Assembly (NCBI GenBank): GCA_018902915.1
Contig: JAHIPS010000083.1
Coordinates: forward strand, 1-34,563
Direction of reading: 5' to 3'
Source of the DNA: Candidatus Omnitrophota bacterium
GTDB taxonomy: Bacteria > Omnitrophota > Gorgyraeia > Gorgyraeales > Gorgyraeaceae
DNA length: 34,563 bases
The notes beneath the pieces were generated by a model. That model saw nothing but the letters and a program-made list of their open reading frames with translations, had not been told where the DNA came from and made no database searches. The translations under genes were made by a program, and so were the position numbers. Shown here one piece after another: positions 17,195 to 34,563 of the stretch (its first letter is position 1; each line of letters starts with the position of its first letter).

Positions 17195-17268
17195 GCGGGT
17201 GTGGTTCAATGGTAGAACACGAGCTTCCCAAGCTCGGAGCGGGGGTTCGATTCCCCTCACCCGCTCCA
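17195..17268 (+). tRNA. tRNA-Gly (CCC anticodon), CCA encoded
   Basis: All four arms fold. Acceptor GCGGGTG pairs with CACCCGC; the D-arm is GTTC/GAAC around AATGGTA; the anticodon stem CGAGC/GCTCG carries loop TTCCCAA, anticodon CCC at 17227-17229; the T-arm GGGGG/CCCCT (one G-T wobble) has loop TTCGATT. The discriminator is T and the CCA end is encoded. Total length is 74 nt. It is on the same strand as, and tightly between, the pfkB-like gene and the Cys-motif small protein, so it may be co-transcribed. Confidence 0.96.
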
Positions 17269-25218: not shown

Positions 25219-26306
25219 GAAAAATAAAAGTAAGACTTGGCAAAAGAAGTTATGATATCGCGGTGTGCTCCAATGAAATCACGCGTCTCGGCAGCGTTGT
25301 CAAAAAACTCAAGATAGGCACAGACGCTATTGTAATAACAAACTCTACCATAAAACGCCTTTTTGGCAGCAAGGTAAAAAAATCCCTGGAGTCGGCGGGG
25401 TTCAGCGTCAACATAAAAATCGTTCCGGATAGCGAAACAGCCAAATCAGAAACGCGCTGCATCGAGCTTTTAAACTATTTGTCAAAATCTGACGGCTCGC
25501 GAAAAAAATTATTTATCGTGGCGCTGGGCGGCGGTGTAGTGGGAGACCTCGCTGGATTTGTCGCCAGCATATATAGACGCGGTATCCCGTATATACAGGT
25601 CCCTACAACGCTTCTCGCGCAGGTAGACTCTGCGATAGGCGGCAAGGTGGCAATAGACCTGAAGGTGGGCAAGAATCTTGCAGGATCGTTCTATCAGCCA
25701 AGGCTTGTTTTCAGTGACACAGGGCTCTTACGAACTTTGGGCAAAAAAGACCTGGCTTCAGGCATGGCAGAGGTCATCAAGTACGGCATTATAAAATCTC
25801 CGCCGCTTTTTAAGTTTCTTGAAAAAAATTACAAAAAGGTGCTCAGGGGCGATAAAAGATCCCTGCAATACATAGTGGGTGTGGCGAGCGCGATAAAAGC
25901 AAATATAGTGGCAAAAGATGAATACGACGGGAAAAATGTGCGCGTCATACTTAACCTGGGCCATACCATCGGTCATGCTATTGAGGCTGCCGCGCAGTAT
26001 AAAAAAAGTTACAGCCATGGCCAGGCAGTGGCGCTGGGCATGATAGCTGCCTCGCGCATATCAATGCAGCTAGGATTACTGGATAAGAGCGCTTATTCCA
26101 GAATAAAAAAGCTCATCAAAAATGCGGGGCTCCCGAGTGTTATAAAAGGGCTCGATACAGGCAATATATTCTCGGCGCAGGAACATGACAAAAAATTCAT
26201 CCACGGGAAAAACAGGTTTGTTTTGCCTGTAAAAATAGGTAAGGTCGTTGTAAAAGAAGGCATACCGCGTTCGCTAATAAAAGATTCTATTGCCAGCCTT
26301 TTATGA
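25215..26306 (+). CDS. aroB: 3-dehydroquinate synthase
   Basis: 363 residues from ATG 25215; the longer in-frame start is a shadow of the M50 gene. It cyclises DAHP to 3-dehydroquinate, using NAD and a metal ion, two steps before or at the entry to the step done by AroQ (7889-8329). Signatures: VALGGGVVGDLAGFVASIYRRG, VPTTLLAQVDSAIGGKVAID, KNLAGSFYQP and the metal-binding NLGHTIGHAIE and SHGQAVALGM. Length is normal. It is translationally coupled at both ends (ATGA with the M50 gene and with rnc). Confidence 0.96.
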   Translation: MRKIKVRLGKRSYDIAVCSNEITRLGSVVKKLKIGTDAIVITNSTIKRLFGSKVKKSLESAGFSVNIKIVPDSETAKSETRCIELLNYLSKSDGSRKKLFIVALGGGVVGDLAGFVASIYRRGIPYIQVPTTLLAQVDSAIGGKVAIDLKVGKNLAGSFYQPRLVFSDTGLLRTLGKKDLASGMAEVIKYGIIKSPPLFKFLEKNYKKVLRGDKRSLQYIVGVASAIKANIVAKDEYDGKNVRVILNLGHTIGHAIEAAAQYKKSYSHGQAVALGMIAASRISMQLGLLDKSAYSRIKKLIKNAGLPSVIKGLDTGNIFSAQEHDKKFIHGKNRFVLPVKIGKVVVKEGIPRSLIKDSIASLL

Positions 26307-27022: not shown

Positions 27023-27516
27023 CGGAGGTCGAGGACGAGTTCGTCGCCTGAATCCTTTTTAATCTTCACGAAATCTTTTGCTATGTGGGTAAGTTTGCCG
27101 CCCAGGAGAGAATCGCCTTCCCTGACTATCCTGTCATTTATAATAGCCCACTTGTCTTCAGGGCCATGGACAATGCCGTTAAGCTCCAGGACAGCTTCTG
27201 CTTTTGGAGCGGGGAGAGAGACTCTTTGGCGGACATAAGGCGCAGGAGAAAATTCCTGTGGCTGTGCCGCAGAAGTAACCGTGGTTTCGTAAGGCGCATT
27301 TAATCTAACTATGTGTTTATACAGGGCCAGGGATCCAAAGAGAGACGCTACAATCACCAGGGATACAACAACCGCTGTCATCCACCTGGTTTCAGAAGTA
27401 GAGGAGACAGGTGCGATCTTCTTCTCCGGGATAGCAACACCGTCTATAACAATGGGCCGCTCTTCTATGCCGGATTCTTTTCTTGCCTTCTTAATAGCGT
27501 CATTTATTATACTCAT
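27019..27516 (-). CDS. GspB-like general secretion / pilus-assembly accessory protein
   Basis: 165 residues. A short cytoplasmic N-terminus (MSIINDAIKKARKE) leads to one transmembrane helix (about 46-67), a Pro/Ala-rich linker and a C-terminal periplasmic domain (about 110-165: LNGIVHGPEDKWAIINDRIV ... KIKKDSGDELVLDLR). The C-terminal domain matches the type II secretion GspB family, which works with GspA to insert or assemble the secretin. It overlaps the upstream gspA-like gene by four bases (ATGA on the minus strand) and forms a two-gene operon. No other secretion genes lie in the window. Confidence 0.82.
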   Translation of the reverse strand: MSIINDAIKKARKESGIEERPIVIDGVAIPEKKIAPVSSTSETRWMTAVVVSLVIVASLFGSLALYKHIVRLNAPYETTVTSAAQPQEFSPAPYVRQRVSLPAPKAEAVLELNGIVHGPEDKWAIINDRIVREGDSLLGGKLTHIAKDFVKIKKDSGDELVLDLR

Positions 27517-28325
27517 TCAAATATGCCCTCAATCTCTTTGGCGCATTTTTTTATCATATTGTTGTCTATAGATTTTTTCTCAGCCACATAGCCTGAAAGA
27601 AGGGCCTTGTCACATATAATATTTATCAATCTCGGCACACCCCTGGAAAATTTGAAAATCGAATCTATCGCGTCGTGCTTAAAAAAATTACCGTTGTGAT
27701 TGCCCGCGACTTCGAGCCTATGAGATATGTAGCCTCCGACCTCATCTCTATCGAGAGGGAGGATGTGGTACCTGATCGCGATCCTTTGCCGCAGCTGTTC
27801 CAGTTCTTTGGACGCGAGCTTTTCTTTTAATTCAGGCTGGCCCACGAGGATTATCTGCAGGAGTTTTTCTTTTTCTGTTTCAAGATTGGACAAGAGGCGG
27901 ATCTGTTCCAGAAGGGAAGGTTTTAGATTCTGCGCCTCGTCTATGATAAGGACCGCGTTATTATTTTGCTTCAATTGGTCGAGGAGAAATTTGTTGAGCT
28001 CGTTCAACATGGTGAGCTTGTTCTTGTTCTTAAGCCTTATGCCAAAGTCCTCGACAATCGCCTGCAGGATCTGGATCTCGGAAAGATTGGAATTAAGGAT
28101 AAACGCGGTCTTGATGTGTTCGTCGAGCGTGTTTAAAAGGCCTTTGCAGATCGTGGTCTTGCCCGTGCCTATCTCACCCGTGATCTCCAGAAACCCCATG
28201 CGCTCCTCTATACCATACCGCATATGAGAAATCGCCTCGCGGTGATGTCTGCTGAGATAGAGAAAATTCGGGTCTGCTGTTACGCTGAACGGCTTTTCTT
28301 TTAATCCGTAGAATTTAAGATACAT
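27513..28325 (-). CDS. GspA/ExeA-like AAA ATPase
   Basis: 270 residues from the ATG whose first base is 28325 (MYLKFYGLKEKPFSVTADPN). The in-frame upstream extension is AT-rich and lacks the family's start motif, so I exclude it. Walker A is GEIGTGKT (50-57) and Walker B VLIIDEAQ (125-132). The ADPNFLYLS start and the arginine-containing QIRLLSNLETEKEKLLQIIL and GQPEL sensor region are standard for ExeA-like ATPases. There is no C-terminal membrane or peptidoglycan-binding domain; that part is provided by the coupled gspB-like gene. A role in outer-membrane secretin assembly is likely. Confidence 0.88.
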   Translation of the reverse strand: MYLKFYGLKEKPFSVTADPNFLYLSRHHREAISHMRYGIEERMGFLEITGEIGTGKTTICKGLLNTLDEHIKTAFILNSNLSEIQILQAIVEDFGIRLKNKNKLTMLNELNKFLLDQLKQNNNAVLIIDEAQNLKPSLLEQIRLLSNLETEKEKLLQIILVGQPELKEKLASKELEQLRQRIAIRYHILPLDRDEVGGYISHRLEVAGNHNGNFFKHDAIDSIFKFSRGVPRLINIICDKALLSGYVAEKKSIDNNMIKKCAKEIEGIFE

Positions 28326-28334
28326 ACCGGTTGA

Positions 28335-28363
28335 ATTATAGCACCTTTGCGCAAGGTAGGCAA
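28335..28363 (-). promoter_or_regulatory. Probable promoter of the gspA-gspB operon
   Basis: On the minus strand: -35 TTGCCT (28358-28363), a 17-bp spacer and a perfect TATAAT (28335-28340). The expected start of transcription falls only a few bases before the ATG at 28325, and no Shine-Dalgarno sequence precedes it, so the transcript may be nearly leaderless. Confidence 0.5.
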
Positions 28364-28386
28364 AGGAAAAGTTTTTCACAATTTTA

Positions 28387-28560
28387 TCAGGCAGGCGCTG
28401 GGGTCATTCGGCACTGAAATAATTTTGCCGTGCGCTACGGTTTACGACTCGCTTTTACTGCCCCACTATCGCTGGCTAGCACGTTCAAAGCTCGCCGTAA
28501 ATCCTTGCGCACATTTGCCAAAATTTTTCTAATGTGCTTCAGGCTCCAGCGCCTGCCTGA
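28387..28560. repeat. 174-bp foldback (MITE-like) element
   Basis: The termini TCAGGCAGGCGCTGG (28387-28401) and its exact complement (28546-28560) are 15-bp inverted repeats. Similarity continues imperfectly inward (for example AATTTTGCCGTGCGC against AATTTTGGCAAATGTGCGC when inverted, and TTTACG-CTCGCTTT against TTTACGGCGAGCTTT), so most of the element could fold as one long, bulged hairpin. No ORF of its own. It marks the border between the core genes and the AT-rich accessory zone. Confidence 0.6.
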
Positions 28561-28570
28561 ATCAAAGACC

Positions 28571-28876
28571 ATGAAAATATTGACATATGATCAATTTATT
28601 AGCCTATGGAATGCGGTTTATGGCGAACCCATGGAAGAAAATATCCTTCTTTTCAAGACCTTGTTAGACAAAGGTTATGCTGTCAGGATACTTTCCGACA
28701 GCAACCCTATTCATAAAAAATTAGCGCTGTCTTTGCTCAAAAAAGAAGGGAACAGGTGCTTCTTCCCAGATCTTACCAGAGTTAGCCACAGTTTACCCGA
28801 TTTACCCTTCTGCGCCTACAATATGACTACAGTAAAATTACCAAAAATTATTCTAATAAAAATACTTGACAAATAG
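28571..28876 (+). CDS. Small ORF, possible fragment of a HAD-like hydrolase
   Basis: 101 residues from ATG 28571, ten bases after the foldback element; the in-frame extension through that element is not believable as protein. YAVRILSDSNPIHKKLALSL recalls motif II of HAD phosphatases (a Ser following a hydrophobic strand), preceded by a helix (EENILLFKTLLDKG). The nucleophile motif DxDxT is absent, and no domain is complete. It could be a truncated gene. The ORF ends inside the promoter/operator of the XRE gene. No clear ribosome-binding site. Confidence 0.4.
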   Translation: MKILTYDQFISLWNAVYGEPMEENILLFKTLLDKGYAVRILSDSNPIHKKLALSLLKKEGNRCFFPDLTRVSHSLPDLPFCAYNMTTVKLPKIILIKILDK

Positions 28877-28894
28877 GTTAAGCTATGATATACT
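28865..28894 (+). promoter_or_regulatory. Promoter and overlapping 18-bp operator of the XRE-MNT-HEPN cassette
   Basis: Consensus TTGACA (28866-28871), 17-bp spacer, TATACT (28889-28894). The -35 lies inside CTTGAC-AAATAG-GTTAAG (28865-28882), an imperfect palindrome that recurs exactly at 29805-29822 and in variant form at 29763-29780. A repressor bound here would block RNA polymerase, and the XRE protein encoded next is the obvious candidate. Confidence 0.65.
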
Positions 28895-28917
28895 TCTTTT
28901 AGAATTGAGGATAGAAT

Positions 28918-29109
28918 ATGGTCGTAAATTTAAGCAGTAAATTGAAGTTGAAGAGGAAACAAAAGGGTCTAACTCAATTGGAGTTAGCCAGGAAGGTTGG
29001 CGTTAGTGAAAGCTATATCTGTCAGATAGAGAATGGTAAGATGATTTCGATTAAGAAACTCGATAAAATGGCAAAGGCATTAGGGTGTGAACCAAAAGAT
29101 ATGCTATAA
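28918..29109 (+). CDS. XRE/Cro-CI family helix-turn-helix regulator
   Basis: 63 residues, a single HTH domain: SKLKLKRKQKGLTQLELARK, then VGVSESYICQIENGKMISIK and KLDKMAKALGCEPKDML. The five-helix Cro/C1 pattern is complete. A TGAGGA ribosome-binding site lies six bases before the ATG. It is the first gene of a three-gene cassette with an MNT nucleotidyltransferase and a HEPN protein, and probably represses that operon through the palindromic operator upstream. It is AT-rich compared with the genes before 28.3 kb. A transmissible toxin-antitoxin setting is likely. Confidence 0.85.
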   Translation: MVVNLSSKLKLKRKQKGLTQLELARKVGVSESYICQIENGKMISIKKLDKMAKALGCEPKDML

Positions 29110-29124
29110 TAGAAGGGCAAATTT

Positions 29125-29418
29125 ATGCTTACAAAAAATGATATCGTAAAGACAATTCAAGAAAATATGAAAGAGATAAAAAGCTATGGCATCAAAAAGA
29201 TAGGGATTTTTGGTTCTATAGCAACAGCTTCTCAGACTGAGCAAAGTGATATTGATATCCTTGTTGAATTCCAAAAGGACAAAAAGGCATTCGATAATTA
29301 TATGGAGCTCAAATTCTTTTTAGAAAAGTTATTTAATTGCAAGGTTGATCTTGTGATTGAAGAAGCATTAAAATCAAGAATCAGAGATAGCGTGCTAAAG
29401 GAAGTTTCCTATGCGTGA
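29125..29418 (+). CDS. MNT-domain nucleotidyltransferase (MntA-type antitoxin)
   Basis: 97 residues, minimal nucleotidyltransferase. GIFGSIATASQTEQSDIDIL contains the GS (G30-S31) plus DxD (D42, D44) signature of polymerase-beta-fold NTases. In MntA-HepT systems the antitoxin AMPylates a tyrosine of the HEPN toxin to silence it. The partner gene overlaps by eight bases, as is usual for this pair. An AGAAGG ribosome-binding site is present. Confidence 0.92.
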   Translation: MLTKNDIVKTIQENMKEIKSYGIKKIGIFGSIATASQTEQSDIDILVEFQKDKKAFDNYMELKFFLEKLFNCKVDLVIEEALKSRIRDSVLKEVSYA

Positions 29419-29740
29419 TTATAAACTTTACTTAGAGGATATATTACAGGCGATTGATAAAATAGAGAAATATACTAAAGGTTTGAATGCTGACAGGTTG
29501 AAGAAGGAAGACTTGATAGTCGATGGAGTTGTTAGAAACTTAGAGATCATTGGCGAAGCTGCAAAGAATATACCCCAGGATATAAAGAAGAAACACCCTG
29601 ACATTGAATGGAAAAAGATCGCTGGCCTGAGAGATATATTAGCACATGAATATTTTGGCATAGATCTACAAATACTGTGGGATATTATTAAGAATAAACT
29701 CCCGGAATTAAAAACCAAAGTTACTCCTTTAATGAAATGA
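29411..29740 (+). CDS. HEPN domain ribonuclease toxin (HepT/DUF86 family)
   Basis: 109 residues, all helical. The RNase motif RX4HXY is intact: R74, H79 and Y81 in GLRDILAHEYFGID. IIGEAAKNIPQDIKKKHPDI is another DUF86 hallmark. HepT toxins cleave RNA (some act on tRNA) until AMPylated by the MNT partner at the motif Tyr. Overlap with the MNT gene by eight bases ensures coupled expression. All catalytic residues of both partners are kept, so this cassette appears functional. Confidence 0.92.
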   Translation: MRDYKLYLEDILQAIDKIEKYTKGLNADRLKKEDLIVDGVVRNLEIIGEAAKNIPQDIKKKHPDIEWKKIAGLRDILAHEYFGIDLQILWDIIKNKLPELKTKVTPLMK

Positions 29741-29762
29741 GTAAAAAATTTTTACGTATATA

Positions 29763-29822
29763 CTTTACAAATAAGTTAAGTAGGATATATTTTTTAATCT
29801 AAAACTTGACAAATAGGTTAAG
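29763..29822 (+). promoter_or_regulatory. Second promoter region with two more copies of the XRE-type operator
   Basis: CTTTAC-AAATAA-GTTAAG (29763-29780) overlaps a -35-like TTTACA (29764-29769), followed 16 bp later by TATATT (29786-29791). A further exact copy of the operator, CTTGAC-AAATAG-GTTAAG, lies at 29805-29822, between the predicted transcription start and the AAGGAGG ribosome-binding site of the next ORF. This arrangement suggests that the integrase-like gene downstream was under the same repressor as the toxin-antitoxin cassette. Confidence 0.55.
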
Positions 29823-29836
29823 TAAGGAGGCTGGCC

Positions 29837-30264
29837 ATGAATCTTATGACTCCAGTGGAAACAGCAGGGGTATTGCACCCGGTTAAACTTGGCGGTATCA
29901 AATATTGCAGGGAAGATTTGGATAAGCTGATAGAGGACAGGAGGGTTTACTTATTCATGATGAAAAGACCATTGATGAGTTTATCCCAGCCTTCATTGAC
30001 TATACGGCTAAACGCACTAGCCATGGAACTGTAGATAGATATTCTCGCAGTATTAAGATATTCAATGATTACCTTAAACAGAGCTACCCAAATCTCGTAG
30101 TATTAACAAGCATATGTACATCTCATATTGAGAACATAACCTATCGCAGAGAGACAGTTAGTATTAAGACTGTCAATAATGAACTCAGAGCCATTAAGAG
30201 GTTCTTAAATGTAGCTATATTCAACATGGAGAGAACCCACGCCAACCTGATATATTTAGCATGA
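29837..30264 (+). pseudogene. Remnant of a helix-turn-helix / tyrosine recombinase gene (frameshifted, no catalytic domain)
   Basis: The first part, from ATG 29837 behind a strong AAGGAGG, reads MNLMTPVETAGVLHPVKLGG then IKYCREDLDKLIEDRR, a shortened HTH_17/excisionase-like domain. Around 29935-29960 the frame shifts (+2/-1) and continues as DEKTIDEFIPAFIDYTAKRT, then RYSRSIKIFNDYLKQ, LTSICTSHIENI and VNNELRAIKRFLNVA. This is the N-terminal core-binding (SAM-like) domain of phage-type tyrosine recombinases. It stops at 30262-30264 without any catalytic domain (no R-H-x-x-R/Y region). It is probably the decayed integrase that brought in the cassette. Confidence 0.7.
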
Positions 30265-30791
30265 AGGAAATTGATTTATTTGAGAATATTATAGAAAATA
30301 AAGAGATTTTTTTATTTCCAATAAAAATCAGTACTTTTTCAAAGCCTCAGAGATTCTATAGCGGGTATGATTTACTAACAGCTGCAAATTATAACAGCAT
30401 TACTAAAGCAATGGAGATCTTGGATTATGAAGGTTGTGTATTCTTTGAAGGTAATAAACTTCTTGCATTTGGTGATTTACCATACATAGTCCGATTGGCA
30501 ATCCATATATATCATGAATTATGGCATGAGCAAGTTTATTCCTTCACAAAAACTGAACTAGTTACTTTAGCAAAGGCAGGGGGGTGGTACGGAAATATAA
30601 ACAATAAACTTACAACAGTCCAGAATTTAACTCTACGACAATTACATGGCAAAGAAAATATGGATTTGTTGCGCATAGATAATAATGGCGAAATTCGAAA
30701 GGAATCTATGCAAAAAGAGCAAGATTTTATTGAATATATAGTATGGACTTTGACTGACATTTCAATGTACTCCAAAATTAGAAATAGATAA
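30261..30791 (+). CDS. Unrecognised AT-rich ORF in the accessory zone
   Basis: 176 residues. I do not recognise a family. Visible features: many aromatic and charged residues, GYDLLTAANYNSITKAMEIL, a stretch VRLAIHIYHELWHEQVYSFT that superficially resembles HExxH but reads HELWHE (His-Glu-Leu-Trp-His), and EQDFIEYIVWTLTDISMY near the end. The HELWH pattern is compatible with a zinc site but unsupported by other context. No ribosome-binding site precedes the ATG, which overlaps the recombinase remnant. The true protein may differ at both ends, since a second frame with good coding character begins at 30754. Confidence 0.45.
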   Translation: MKEIDLFENIIENKEIFLFPIKISTFSKPQRFYSGYDLLTAANYNSITKAMEILDYEGCVFFEGNKLLAFGDLPYIVRLAIHIYHELWHEQVYSFTKTELVTLAKAGGWYGNINNKLTTVQNLTLRQLHGKENMDLLRIDNNGEIRKESMQKEQDFIEYIVWTLTDISMYSKIRNR

Positions 30792-30951
30792 AAAAGACCC
30801 TGTTTTGTTAGCACTAATAGACATTTTTCTAAAAAGAAATAAAACAAATGCAATATTAAAGGTTGTTGAAGAACTGGGAATAAATATATCACTGGAAGAG
30901 GTGCTATCGGGGAGCAAGGCGATGCAGGAAGTATTGGATGAAAGTCTATAA
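30754..30951 (+). pseudogene. Out-of-frame C-terminal continuation of the preceding ORF
   Basis: In another frame, overlapping the end of the previous ORF, there are 65 residues without a stop: PKLEIDKKDPVLLALIDIFL, then KRNKTNAILKVVEELGINIS and LEEVLSGSKAMQEVLDESL. The composition is protein-like (two amphipathic helices), with no start codon of its own. I infer a frameshift in the region 30750-30790 that split one ancestral gene, so the parent protein was probably about 230 residues. Ends 20 bases before the first attachment-like block. Confidence 0.4.
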
Positions 30952-30972
30952 GAGTGTTCTGATTTCCAAAAA

Positions 30973-30994
30973 ATGCCTACAATATGCCTGCAAT
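30973..30994. repeat. 11-bp tandem repeat left of block A
   Basis: ATGCCTACAAT followed directly by ATGCCTGCAAT (one mismatch). It lies 20 bases left of the tRNA-end-like core of block A. Tandem 11-mers also close blocks A, B and C, which is the layout expected of recombinase arm-type binding sites. Confidence 0.5.
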
Positions 30995-31010
30995 GGAGTC
31001 GATTTCGTGC

Positions 31011-31185
31011 TCAATGGTGCGGAAGGTGGGAGTTTATTTGGCCCTTTTTACGCATCCCAATACAAATCAACAAAATAGACGTAATTTGCTTAATTTTCAA
31101 TAAGTTACGTCTCTTGCCAAGACTTACCTCTATCTACCGCTAACTACCTATTACAAGCAATCTATAGTGGAAATATAGTGGAAAT
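31011..31185. mobile_element. Attachment-like block A (copy 1 of a 175-bp direct repeat)
   Basis: Starts with TCAATGGTGCGGAAGGTGGG, which on the minus strand reads as the 3' end of a tRNA: T-stem end, acceptor strand CTTCCGC, discriminator A and CCA. Next come a conserved hairpin AGACGTAA/TTACGTCT (31077-31084, 31105-31112) and a run of degenerate TTACCTCTA/CTACC motifs, then a perfect tandem 11-mer ATAGTGGAAAT (31164-31185). It matches 34098-34272 over its whole length without gaps, with 13 mismatches by hand count. The tRNA end plus arm-like repeats fit an att site of a tyrosine recombinase; a whole tRNA cannot be folded here. Confidence 0.65.
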
Positions 31186-31274
31186 TTTTTAATCCGAAAA
31201 TTAGGAAGTGATATTATACGAAATCTTATATAGTTAATAATGAAGAATATTGACAGGGAGACTAATTTTTATCC

Positions 31275-31334
31275 TTGACATATTAGAGAATATATTGTAT
31301 ACTTTAATACAGAGAATTGTATAGATATATACAA
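31275..31334 (+). promoter_or_regulatory. Promoter and palindromic operator of the DUF6036-like nucleotidyltransferase operon
   Basis: TTGACA (31275-31280), an exact 17-bp spacer, TATACT (31298-31303). Just downstream of the expected start site lies the palindrome TTGTATA-GATA-TATACAA (31317-31334). No Shine-Dalgarno sequence precedes the ATG at 31343, so the leader is short. The operator beside a strong promoter is typical of self-repressing toxin-antitoxin operons. Confidence 0.65.
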
Positions 31335-31342
31335 ATAATTGT

Positions 31343-31915
31343 ATGAATAAGTACAGAATAGATAGACAGGAATTGTTGAATACGATTAGCGGATGGGATG
31401 GCTTTCTTAAGAGAAAAGTCCATTTGATTGCTTGTGGCGGCACGGCTTTGACACTTTTAGGAATAAAACCATCAACTAAGGATATTGATTTAATTGTGCC
31501 GAATTTAAGCGAATACAAATATCTTATGTCTACTTTAGAACAACTAGGATATAAACCCGCAACTGGCTCAGGATGGAGGAGAGGAGATGGTTTTGTTTTT
31601 GAATTCTTTAGGGGCAAGGCAGTCCATACTACAGAATTATTAGAGTCGCCGTTAGATAACAGAAACCACAGTTTGATTAAGGAATTAAGCTATATCTATT
31701 TAGGAGTTCTTAATTATTACGACCTAATTGTTAGTAAATTGTTTAGGGGAAGCAGTGTAGACATAGAGGATTGTCTTGCTTTAATAAAGGCAAAGAAGAA
31801 AGACATAGACTTGAAATTATTGGAAAAGCGGTTTAGGGAAACAGCTTCTTTCGATGTTTCAGAAGACAGGGTAAATAAAAACTTAGAGCATTTTTTGAGA
31901 ATTATTAAAGAATGA
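31343..31915 (+). CDS. DUF6036-like nucleotidyltransferase (AbiEii/MNT superfamily)
   Basis: 190 residues. LIACGGTALTLLGIKPSTKD then IDLIVPNL gives GG (32-33) plus DxD (D47, D49) of the polymerase-beta nucleotidyltransferase fold, in the GGTAL...TKDIDL form seen in AbiEii-like and DUF6036 proteins. A conserved ELSYIYLGVLNYYDLIVSKL and DIEDCLALIKA follow, also typical of that group. It is not an MntA of the small type. The next gene starts ten bases downstream, behind a GGACAGGA ribosome-binding site, and probably encodes its partner. Function inferred from family: a toxin, or an antitoxin that modifies its partner, or a tRNA-modifying abortive-infection enzyme. Confidence 0.8.
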   Translation: MNKYRIDRQELLNTISGWDGFLKRKVHLIACGGTALTLLGIKPSTKDIDLIVPNLSEYKYLMSTLEQLGYKPATGSGWRRGDGFVFEFFRGKAVHTTELLESPLDNRNHSLIKELSYIYLGVLNYYDLIVSKLFRGSSVDIEDCLALIKAKKKDIDLKLLEKRFRETASFDVSEDRVNKNLEHFLRIIKE

Positions 31916-31925
31916 GGACAGGATA

Positions 31926-32594
31926 ATGGTTAATAAGAGCCTTTTGAAGAGATTGGGAAAGCTTGGCTATCCCTTATTTGAAACAGAAGAGGCGCAGGAT
32001 GCTAATACTACATTGGCCGAAGTAGTTCAGAGCAAGGATCTTCGTCTATGGGAGGGATTTCCTGTTGTATTGGCTAATAGTGCTGAGAGAGGGCTTTTTG
32101 ATTATGAGATGGTTAAATGGCACCTTAAAAAGCCATTTGATAAACTTAATTTAGGTCCATTATTGGTAATGTCCCTTGCGCTTTACAAGGTAATAAATCT
32201 AAGGTTTTCATGGGCGGATAAATTTTATAAAAATTTGAATAGAGATGACAAAAAACGGTTTAGTAGTCTTTTGAAAAAATTAAAAAAGAATGAGGATTTT
32301 AAGGTTTCAGGACGTCTTATGTCCAGTCAAAGATTGAAAGTTACATTTGATAATTATTTTAACCAGGAGCGTTCAAAACTTAATGACCTGCTTTCTGTAA
32401 AGGAAGAATTAGGGCTTGAGTACGCATTATCTCAGGTTTTTTCGCCAAAACAAAAGGAATTGTTTTTAAAGAAACTTAGACATGAAAAATTGACCAAGAC
32501 CGAAAAGGAATATTTTTCAAGGGTTGTAAAAAAGAAGGCCTTAGCACTGGCCAATTCAGAATTACATCGTTTATCTCAGAGATTGTTAGAATAA
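31926..32594 (+). CDS. Uncharacterised partner of the nucleotidyltransferase, C-terminal HTH-like
   Basis: 222 residues, mostly helical, Lys-rich, no membrane segment. The N-terminal ~70 residues contain LGKLGYPLFETEEAQDANTT and LRLWEGFPVVLANSAERGLF. The C-terminal 50 (FSPKQKELFLKKLRHEKLTK, TEKEYFSRVVKKKALALANS, ELHRLSQRLL) have the spacing of a sigma-70 region-4-like helix-turn-helix, a segment I associate with MNT-linked proteins, but I cannot name a family for the whole. It may bind DNA (the operator upstream) and be the antitoxin/regulator, or be the target of the nucleotidyltransferase. Ten bases from the upstream gene and closed by block B, so the pair is self-contained. Confidence 0.6.
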   Translation: MVNKSLLKRLGKLGYPLFETEEAQDANTTLAEVVQSKDLRLWEGFPVVLANSAERGLFDYEMVKWHLKKPFDKLNLGPLLVMSLALYKVINLRFSWADKFYKNLNRDDKKRFSSLLKKLKKNEDFKVSGRLMSSQRLKVTFDNYFNQERSKLNDLLSVKEELGLEYALSQVFSPKQKELFLKKLRHEKLTKTEKEYFSRVVKKKALALANSELHRLSQRLLE

Positions 32595-32657
32595 TGAACC
32601 TTAAGAGCATGACCTGTCTAACCTAGTTAGATTTGGCAGGTTAGACGTACAGATTTC

Positions 32658-32825
32658 TGGTGCGGAAGACGGGATGGAATACGTAAAATCCCTGATTTAC
32701 GCACAAATTCCCTAACCCCTTAAAACATCAATAGTTAATTACCTTCAGTTGCCTCAAGTTAACTTCCGTTAAATAGCCATTTTGGACAGGATTTTGGCAA
32801 TTTGCGTGCCAAAAGCGTGCCAGAA
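32658..32825. mobile_element. Attachment-like block B
   Basis: Begins TGGTGCGGAAGACGGGAT, the reverse complement of a tRNA 3' end (ATCCCGTCTTCCGCACCA), sharing the 11-base core TGGTGCGGAAG with blocks A and C. It then diverges: there is a CGTAAA...TTTACG hairpin (32681-32697 region), short TTACCTTCA/TTAACTTCC repeats and, at its end, a tandem 11-mer GCGTGCCAAAA + GCGTGCCAGAA (32804-32825). The architecture equals that of blocks A and C although most of the sequence differs. It separates the nucleotidyltransferase cassette from the PhoU-like cassette. Confidence 0.55.
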
Positions 32826-32851
32826 TTACCATTTAAATTTATATTTTCATC

Positions 32852-32880
32852 TTGCCTATATCACCCCACAGTAGTATCAT
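32852..32880 (+). promoter_or_regulatory. Probable promoter of the zinc-ribbon/PhoU-like cassette
   Basis: TTGCCT (32852-32857), 17-bp spacer, TATCAT (32875-32880), about 40 bases before the ATG at 32923. It stands at the right end of block B. It is weaker than the promoters at 28866 and 31275. Confidence 0.4.
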
Positions 32881-32922
32881 AATACGTAGCTTAATTACAC
32901 ATAAACCACGAAGGTGCAGGAT

Positions 32923-33270
32923 ATGTTCTGCCCAAAGTGTAAAGCTGAATATAGAGAAGGATTTGATACATGCGTTGATTGTAATTTACCATTGGTAGAT
33001 TACAATCCAGAAGAACCTCCTGCGGAGTATATAAAGTTTAAAGAGCTGTTGCACACATTTAACCCAGCAGATATTGCCTTTATAAAATCAATATTAGATT
33101 CGCATAATATTACATATTACGTCCAAGGCGAAAATTTTCTACAGCTAAGGCCTTTGGTTCAACCTGTGGGCATTATGGTTGATGAGGAACAGTTTGAAGA
33201 AGCGAAAGAGCTACTGAAGGATTTCAGAGGAAGATTTACTGGTTTATCTTTGCGAGAAGGTGGGCACTAA
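32923..33270 (+). CDS. Zinc-ribbon plus DUF2007-like signalling domain protein
   Basis: 115 residues from ATG 32923 (an in-frame GTG lies three codons earlier; AGGTG sits six bases before the ATG). The N-terminus has a four-Cys zinc ribbon: MFCPKCKAEYREGFDTCVDC. From about 40 on the sequence (ELLHTFNPADIAFIKSILDS, HNITYYVQGENF, VGIMVDEEQFEEAKELLKDF) matches the DUF2007/putative signal-transducing fold, a PII-like or ferredoxin-like domain. Such proteins occur widely without known ligands. The PhoU-like gene follows 59 bases later, and the two sit alone between blocks B and C. Confidence 0.75.
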   Translation: MFCPKCKAEYREGFDTCVDCNLPLVDYNPEEPPAEYIKFKELLHTFNPADIAFIKSILDSHNITYYVQGENFLQLRPLVQPVGIMVDEEQFEEAKELLKDFRGRFTGLSLREGGH

Positions 33271-33328
33271 TATAAGGCAATCTTGGCATAACGCTGGATT
33301 GTTTTTTATTTTAAGGGGGATTAAAGTT

Positions 33329-33967
33329 ATGACAAATTTAAATAAAGCTGAGTTAAGAGAAATTGTTTCATTGAGGCAAGAGACTATAGAAATGTTAAAG
33401 CGGGTTCAGATAATGTTTCGTACCAGCTTCGATGGTTTAATGAAAAACGATATTGATATCTTAAAACAAGTGCTTAAGGATGAGACAAAGATTAATAAGG
33501 CTTACAGTAACCTGACTACCTCAGCAATAGAAAGTTCTAAAAAAAAGTTATCAGCTGAAGCCAAGAACATAGTTGTAGATTTAGTGAACATTATCTCTGC
33601 AATTGAGAGAATGGGAGATTTGTGCATAAGCCTAGTAGAACGAATTGAGTATAAAATTAGCGAAAAGTTATTATTTAGTGAAGCGGCAGTACAAGAATAC
33701 AAGGAGTTGTGTAATAATATAGACAAGATTTTATCAAATACAATTGAGGCGATAAACACTAACGATAAGAAACTCGGCAAAAAGATTATAGAGAATAAAT
33801 CACGCCTCTATGTATTAATAAAAAAGAGTCGAGCTAACCATATTGATAGGTCAGCAAAAGGAATTTGCGATGAATGGGCAAAAATTCGGTATCTTGATAT
33901 GTTAGATTTTATTAAAGAGATTGTAGACCATTGCGTAGAGACAGTAGGTAAGCTGATAGGGAAATAA
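33329..33967 (+). CDS. PhoU-like domain protein
   Basis: 212 residues from ATG 33329, eight bases after AAGGGGGA; the upstream in-frame extension is not supported. The protein is all-helical with one or two three-helix PhoU-type repeats: MKNDIDILKQVLKDETKINK, then IISAIERMGDLCISLVERIE, which matches the E/D-rich metal-binding signature ERxGD of PhoU and the C-terminal tails of Na/Pi cotransporters. PhoU proteins link phosphate transport to the phosphate-starvation sensor kinase. No pst, pho or Na/Pi transporter gene is nearby. A terminator follows its stop. Confidence 0.8.
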   Translation: MTNLNKAELREIVSLRQETIEMLKRVQIMFRTSFDGLMKNDIDILKQVLKDETKINKAYSNLTTSAIESSKKKLSAEAKNIVVDLVNIISAIERMGDLCISLVERIEYKISEKLLFSEAAVQEYKELCNNIDKILSNTIEAINTNDKKLGKKIIENKSRLYVLIKKSRANHIDRSAKGICDEWAKIRYLDMLDFIKEIVDHCVETVGKLIGK

Positions 33968-34011
33968 TTCCCGTAACGTGGCTGCTAAAAAGAGATTTGG
34001 TATATTAATTT

Positions 34012-34050
34012 AAGGGCAATCTGGAGCTATAGCTTTGGGTTGCCTTTTTT
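34012..34050 (+). terminator. Intrinsic terminator after the PhoU-like gene
   Basis: AAGGGCAA (34012-34019) pairs with TTGCCTTT (34040-34047, one mismatch), with an AGCTATAGCT palindrome at the tip, followed by a run of six T (34045-34050). It is the clearest classical rho-independent terminator in the window. Confidence 0.75.
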
Positions 34051-34097
34051 GGTTTAGTGAAGGATTAACTATGGTTATGGTCAAGTAGATTTTGTAT

Positions 34098-34272
34098 TCA
34101 ATGGTGCGGAAGGTGGGAGTTTATTTGGCCCTTTTCCCGCATCCCAATACAAATCAACAAAATAGACGTAATTTGCTTTGTTTTCAATAAGTTACGTCTC
34201 TTACCAAGACTTACCTCCATTTACCCCTAACTACCCATCACAATAAATCCATAGTGGAAATATAGTGGAAAT
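34098..34272. mobile_element. Attachment-like block C (copy 2 of the 175-bp direct repeat)
   Basis: Aligns base for base with 31011-31185, no gaps, with 13 mismatches by hand count. The tRNA-3'-end core TGGTGCGGAAG (34102-34112), the AGACGTAA/TTACGTCT hairpin and the tandem ATAGTGGAAAT (34251-34272) are all kept. Together with block A it brackets the two cassettes between 31.2 and 34.1 kb. Confidence 0.68.
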
Positions 34273-34284
34273 CCCTACCTCCCT

Positions 34285-34356
34285 GTCATTGCGAGGCCAC
34301 GAATCGGCCGCGTGCCCCGTACCTGAGCGAAGCGAATGGTACGGGGAAGCAATCTC
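34285..34356. repeat. GTCATTGCGAG...GAAGCAATCTC dispersed palindromic element
   Basis: Starts GTCATTGCGAGG and ends GAAGCAATCTC, common ends of a dispersed bacterial repeat. An internal hairpin with 9-bp arms, CCCCGTACC (34315-34323) / GGTACGGGG (34338-34346), surrounds GAGCGAAGCG. A second copy begins at 34545. Confidence 0.6.
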
Positions 34357-34369
34357 AAAAGGAGGGGCC

Positions 34370-34563
34370 ATGTTCAGTCCAAGATCCTTACTAAACTTCG
34401 CCATAGGTTTTCATACGTATATCTGGCTAGACGTCTACATCCTCAAAGAAACCCCGAAGGCCATTCTAATCATGTTCGACAACAGAAAAATCTGGCTTCC
34501 TAAATCGTGGATCGTGAGAATAAGACGAAGCAAAGGCGCCCTTTGTCATTGCGAGCGAAGCGA
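34370..34563 (+). CDS. Small hypothetical protein, 3' end outside the window
   Basis: 64 full codons are visible from ATG 34370, behind AAAAGGAGGGG. The product reads MFSPRSLLNFAIGFHTYIWL, then KAILIMFDNRKIWLPKSWIV, then RIRRSKGALCHCERS. KAILIMFDNRKIWLPKSWIV suggests a small conserved beta-rich protein with no function assigned. The last residues (CHCERS) come from a copy of the GTCATTGCGAG repeat at 34545, so the native C-terminus is probably just before it. It may be one of the small 'hitchhiker' genes of the accessory zone. Confidence 0.55.
   Translation, partial: MFSPRSLLNFAIGFHTYIWLDVYILKETPKAILIMFDNRKIWLPKSWIVRIRRSKGALCHCERS
34545..34563. repeat. Second GTCATTGCGAG element, cut by the window edge
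   Basis: GTCATTGCGAGCGAAGCGA, the start of the same element type as at 34285-34356. It is read in frame by the small ORF at 34370. Confidence 0.6.

Follow-up and report, generated by a model that had tools for sequence, protein, structure and literature searches.

Genes and Putative Operator Sites at the xre Locus

The analyzed window, a stretch of 34,563 nucleotides from a Candidatus Omnitrophota bacterium, encodes a small HTH protein (XRE), which is followed by a minimal nucleotidyltransferase (MNT)-HEPN gene pair and by the remnants of two mobility genes. Three copies of an 18-bp motif, already reported at 28865, 29763, and 29805 in an earlier note on this DNA, were confirmed around these genes. 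The locus consists of the following features:

28865-28882, plus strand: operator O1, CTTGACAAATAGGTTAAG; contains the -35 element of the xre promoter (28866-28871), with the -10 element TATACT at 28889-28894
28918-29109, plus strand: xre, 63-aa Cro/C1-type HTH protein (HTH_3), presumed repressor; PF01381, E 2.6e-17
29094-29110, plus strand: junction AAAAGATATGCTATAAT; AAAAGAT as in xre 3' ends, ATGCTATAAT as upstream of an MNT-HepT locus from the same family
29125-29418, plus strand: mntA, minimal nucleotidyltransferase antitoxin with the GSX10DXD motif
29411-29740, plus strand: hepT, HEPN RNase toxin with the RX4HXY motif; PF01934, E 4.9e-32
29763-29780, plus strand: operator O2, CTTTACAAATAAGTTAAG; contains the -35-like TTTACA (29764-29769) of the recombinase promoter, with the -10 element TATATT at 29786-29791
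29805-29822, plus strand: operator O3, CTTGACAAATAGGTTAAG; located just 3' of the expected transcript start and followed by the Shine-Dalgarno sequence AAGGAGG (29824-29830)
29837-29956, plus strand: remnant of a xis-like HTH_17 gene, in which the first half of the domain is missing (profile positions 24-51 only); an intact counterpart is present in a related locus, L035
29947-30264, plus strand: remnant of a tyrosine recombinase, reduced to the N-terminal SAM-like part, which lies in another frame; the catalytic domain is missing

O1 is located at a near-consensus promoter of xre (TTGACA-17-TATACT, 11 of 12 consensus bases) and O2 at the recombinase promoter (TTTACA-16-TATATT, 10 of 12), while O3 spans approximately +8 to +25 of the recombinase transcript, whose start codon follows at 29837. 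The earlier placement of the three copies on the xre -35 element, on a -35-like hexamer, and near a transcript start was therefore right. The description of the site as a palindrome applies to its half-sites, CTTNAC/GTTAAG, which are symmetric except for column 4, but not to the AAATAR center, which is asymmetric; thus the dyad symmetry is imperfect. The suspicion that such a motif may be common at random was not borne out: the window contains four matches at three or fewer mismatches versus 0.11 expected (the fourth, at 25469, is weak), and none of 100 shuffles reached four. The pattern CTTNACNNNNNNGTTAAG (CTTNAC-N6-GTTAAG) occurs four times in the 1.8-Mb assembly to which the window belongs, namely at O1, O2, O3, and one place with an unrelated center. 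A position matrix trained on the sites of relatives alone, the window sites being left out, puts the three operators on top (27.0, 27.0, and 25.3 bits), with the next best match at 11.4 bits. As a separate observation, O2 and O3 with their spacers (29763-29822) resemble a tandem duplication of a unit of about 42 bp, and the O2/O3 spacer (TAGGATAT-T-run-AAT..AAA) is similar to the one between xre and O2 in relatives.

The XRE Protein

The HTH_3 domain covers residues 9-60, which is most of XRE and places the protein in the Cro/C1-type repressor family. Its nearest solved relatives are structures of the phage 434 repressor (best match E 6.9e-11). A search of a phage collection returned only repressors that are less than 60% identical, mostly of the 434 type, as is the best of them; a search of a plasmid collection gave no match. 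The segment SESYICQIE is invariant in six aligned XRE proteins and also in the ortholog from locus L085; from the alignment to the 434 repressor, we take it to be the recognition helix. XRE ends at residue 63, matches HTH-type families only, and has no LexA-like C-terminal self-cleavage domain, thus no SOS-type induction is apparent. An AlphaFold model built from six sequences is of low confidence (pLDDT 57) and played no part in the conclusions.

Conservation of the xre-Operator Architecture

When the proteins of 384 genomes from the phylum were searched, close orthologs of xre with 67-71% identity were found in four other genomes, and a scan of 84,980 species revealed one further ortholog (L085, 65%). 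Altogether, the relatives constitute six loci in five other genomes, which include Candidatus Omnitrophota bacteria, one of them Candidatus Zapsychrus exili. At all six loci, O1 is located about 60 bp upstream of xre; downstream of the gene, at a distance of 15-25 bp, an O2/O3 pair lies over the -35 element and the start region of the recombinase promoter. The distance between O2 and O3 varies from 38 to 42 bp, which does not support a fixed cooperative geometry. The motif and the order O1-xre-O2-O3-recombinase are thus kept in seven loci of six genomes, the window included, so the earlier reading withstands the comparison with orthologous loci in this respect. O1 has the identical 18 bp at the same position in all seven loci. 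Among the 22 sites compared, variation is confined to columns 4 and 12, with the exception of a single G-to-C change at column 18. All O2 sites have A at column 12, where all O1 and O3 sites have G; at column 4, O1 always has G and O2/O3 are variable. This position-specific variation suggests graded affinity of the sites, in a modest sample of seven loci where the low-complexity A/T spacers around O2/O3 are themselves partly conserved.

The exact motif is present in 5 of the 384 genomes, and these are precisely the five genomes with an xre ortholog; by counting, such co-occurrence has one chance in about 7e10 if relatedness is ignored. The five genomes fall in four families, in which searches detected the element in 1 of 19, 2 of 4, 1 of 12, and 1 of 32 genomes and no further copies; such sporadic presence is expected of a mobile element. 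Eleven viral stretches with a single motif match each and no xre relative were attributed to chance, and the distant XRE loci L010-L034 were kept out of the family, as they have no significant match to the integrases, xis, MNT, or HEPN of the elements.

The perfect co-occurrence of motif and gene and the layout of the seven loci are the grounds on which we assign the sites to XRE. As an alternative, the sites might be operators of another protein, with XRE unrelated to them. In the relatives, the O2/O3 pair is followed by a small ORF, a xis-like gene, and a Phage_integrase gene, and in several loci a conserved ORF of about 45-53 aa and an HTH protein are found just 3' of O3, which makes both of them candidates, as would be a host regulator. 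However, the small ORF is absent in L085, and the xis-like proteins differ by subgroup: the one of L035 is an intact HTH_17 protein, that of L085 matches no Pfam family, and that of the window is degraded. Only xre is constant wherever the sites are constant. A host regulator would not be confined to 5 of 384 genomes. We therefore regard an unrelated regulator as a most improbable owner of these sites.

Integrative Elements at tRNA-Ser Genes

The Phage_integrase gene of the relatives is intact wherever the contig extends far enough, and the same xre-operator switch is paired with two different integrase types. Three of the loci, L082 (11.7 kb), L085 (7.4 kb), and L080 (16.2 kb), are bounded by 27-bp direct repeats that correspond to the 3' end of tRNA-Ser and enclose the integrase, as in tRNA-targeting tyrosine-recombinase elements. 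They are complete tRNA-Ser islands with defense cargo. Among the genes carried by the family are those for DNA methyltransferases, an OLD-like nuclease, a DndB/DpdB-like protein, a DUF2326 ATPase, and a Panacea-like and proteasome-like gene pair.

In L082, a fourth operator with a good promoter is located 2.06 kb upstream of O1 (L082:2529-4593), and the two operator copies, as a 22-bp repeat, bracket the block with the Panacea-like and proteasome-like genes; possibly, the operator became duplicated upon entry of the block. The Panacea-like gene adjoins the proteasome-fold (Ntn-hydrolase-like) gene at L082:3224-4455, and a similar-looking pair is found at L035:12381-13598; possibly, they constitute an undescribed TA or defense pair.

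Instead of operators, repeats that bracket cargo could also be recombination or insertion seams, that is, direct repeats that the XRE-TA segment left behind or used when it inserted. Such a reading would fit the bracketed 2.06-kb block of L082 and the window, where the XRE-TA segment is flanked by O1 and O3 as an exact direct repeat of 19 bp, the copies being at a distance of 940 bp. Nevertheless, we consider it very unlikely, since at six loci the repeats surround xre alone and always at promoters, the true attachment repeats of the elements are the tRNA-Ser 3' ends, and site identity is far above flank identity. The interpretation of O1 and O3 as target-site duplications was dropped because both sites are present in relatives without the insertion.

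A Probably Captured Toxin-Antitoxin Pair

In HepT-MntA systems of type VII, the toxicity of an RNase is neutralized by AMPylation. The adjacent PF01934 and PF01909 genes of the window, with their RX4HXY and GSX10DXD motifs, correspond to a HepT-MntA pair of type VII, which is defined by an RX4HXY toxin and a GSX10DXD adenylyltransferase antitoxin encoded by overlapping genes (PMC7641770). The earlier note had treated XRE-MNT-HEPN as one cassette. We found no MNT-HEPN genes between xre and O2 in any of the six xre relatives; as no toxin gene of any kind lies there, XRE does not qualify as a type II antitoxin of the HipB/HigA kind either. HepT relatives are present in 78 of the 384 genomes, and all 29 inspected MNT-HepT loci outside the window (both genes present) lack both xre and the operator within about 1.5 kb of flank, or less at some contig ends. 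The palindrome was thus not found at other MNT-HEPN loci, and the cassette does not hold as a conserved unit. Because the pair is absent from the relatives of xre and xre and its sites from the other pairs, the comparison presents the TA pair as a passenger in the window copy only.

The junction suggests a source of the passenger. The closest relative of the window HepT (81% identity) is encoded in locus L088 of the same family, where the 17 bp AAAAGATATGCTATAAT is located 5' of mntA; in the window, the same 17 bp constitute the last codons and the stop of xre, in place of which most xre relatives have AAAAGATCTTCTCTAG. No match longer than 14 bp was obtained in 2000 shuffles, and with other MNT loci the shared stretch is just 5-7 bp long. 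The simplest reading, based on this one relative, is a join at the shared AAAAGAT, with xre on the left and the MNT upstream region on the right; a right-hand junction of the insertion was looked for and not found. The -10 element of the pair is retained only 14 bp before the mntA start, thus a Shine-Dalgarno sequence would fall 5' of the transcript start, and the pair probably relies on the xre transcript and is co-expressed with the repressor. The extended -10 (TGCTATAAT) before mntA might provide the TA pair with a weak start of its own.

A true tripartite TA system, in which XRE is the dedicated regulator and the relatives lost the pair, would account for window genes that are 15 bp apart or overlap behind one strong promoter. 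Its probability is nonetheless very low, given that the pair is found with 0 of 6 xre relatives, that xre or the site is found at 0 of 29 MNT-HepT loci, and that the junction looks like xre fused to the upstream region of a foreign MNT gene.

Decay of the Mobility Genes and the Island in the Window

No intact integrase and no tRNA-Ser repeat were found near xre in the window, whose only tRNA gene is tRNA-Gly at 17195; the window copy therefore falls outside the tRNA-targeting elements described above. As its xis and int are broken, the coupling of TA expression to movement of the element that the earlier note put forward is not supported as a present-day property of this copy, and control of movement in it is a relic.

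Several other features of this region were observed. In most same-family genomes with enough flank, the ExeA-type ATPase gene (27513-28379) is followed by PilZ-like genes; in the window an island (28380-34563) starts there instead, and the end of the ATPase gene is probably its insertion point. A 14-bp perfect inverted repeat (28388-28401/28546-28559) marks the left edge of the island. Three copies of TGGTGCGGAAG(GT/AC)GGGA, which looks like the reverse complement of a tRNA-Leu 3' end with CCA, are located at 31015-31031, 32658-32674, and 34102-34118, with no others in the assembly. The first and third copies, 3087 bp apart, are each followed by about 170 bp of near-identical sequence, which suggests that these repeats are tandem att sites of accreted islets. 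Between two of the att-like cores, a DUF6036 nucleotidyltransferase and a partner gene (31343-32594) possibly constitute a second, AbiE-like TA islet. A small protein encoded at 34370-34561 (...LDVYILKETPKAILIMFDNRKIWLPKSWIV...) is 61% identical over 51 aa to the product of L085:4593-4745, an early ORF past the tRNA-Ser att site of that element.

A Proposed Repressor-Operator Circuit

Taking these comparisons together, we consider it very likely that the 63-aa XRE recognizes the 18-bp sites as its operators and represses its own gene and the recombinase, and that in the window a TA pair was fused in and the recombinase decayed. More generally, we propose that xre and its operators form the switch that governs mobility in a family of integrative elements located at tRNA-Ser genes of Omnitrophota. 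We infer from the DNA alone that XRE binds these sites, that it represses rather than activates, and that the TA pair is co-transcribed. In the proposed mechanism, an XRE dimer on O1 would cover the -35 element and spacer of the xre promoter, resulting in autorepression, and dimers on O2 (at the -35 element) and O3 (just past the start site) would silence the xis-int operon and thereby keep the element integrated. A HepT-MntA pair would have recombined onto the xre 3' end in the window and thereby probably joined the autorepressed xre transcript as its distal portion; the later decay of xis and int would leave the switch over xre and the TA pair, so that autorepression limits the expression of the pair while the recombinase branch is dead. 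The earlier suggestion that XRE represses both the cassette and the mobility gene is thus retained in part: comparative evidence assigns the sites to XRE and to the xre and recombinase promoters, but the TA pair is not ancestral to the circuit. A bolder reading, which we put forward tentatively and hold to be somewhat doubtful, is that a selfish switch was re-purposed: the type VII pair would have been captured into an autorepressed transcript where the repressor level sets the TA dose, the circuit would have persisted beyond the loss of its integrase, as a three-gene TA locus under operator control, and the operators would also have served as seams for cargo entry in the window and L082.

The circuit resembles those of SetR from SXT/R391 ICEs and of CI/434-type repressors: all are HTH_3 proteins, XRE would likewise be autoregulated and keep its element integrated, and several dyad operators with AT-rich spacers, putative in the case of XRE, are located around their own and an early promoter (PMC4542580). 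SetR of SXT has four operators around these two promoters (PMC4542580), whereas the XRE layout comprises one operator 5' of xre and two 3' of it. Unlike SetR and CI, XRE is 63 aa long and has no LexA-like cleavage domain; moreover, SetR works via SetCD, whereas XRE apparently targets the xis-int promoter itself. Another of the closest analogues is ImmR of ICEBs1, an element-encoded repressor whose inactivation derepresses ICE genes and the excisionase (PMC2978689). Either a cell sensory protein or the SOS response inactivates ImmR, and no counterpart of these was identified for XRE. The window HepT-MntA pair lies behind an element repressor gene, whereas the 29 other pairs examined do not. For a TA pair under mobility control, the analogue is MosAT of SXT, where expression of the pair is coupled to regulators that govern the mobility of the integrative element (PMC2654960). 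MosAT is of a different TA type, and its expression rises with Xis and SetCD, whereas the window pair would follow expression of the repressor in an element whose int is broken.

No earlier description of an xre-operator circuit from Omnitrophota was found in the literature searched. The sequence suffices to define a complete repressor-operator circuit (a protein, an 18-bp site, and two promoters), which belongs to a scattered family of defense-carrying integrative elements in this little-studied phylum. While the circuit is of a familiar kind, the captured TA pair is instructive: the window provides an example of a TA pair brought under a mobile-element repressor by a single fusion, and such a fusion offers a concrete way for XRE-plus-TA gene sets to arise, which can easily be taken for tripartite TA systems.
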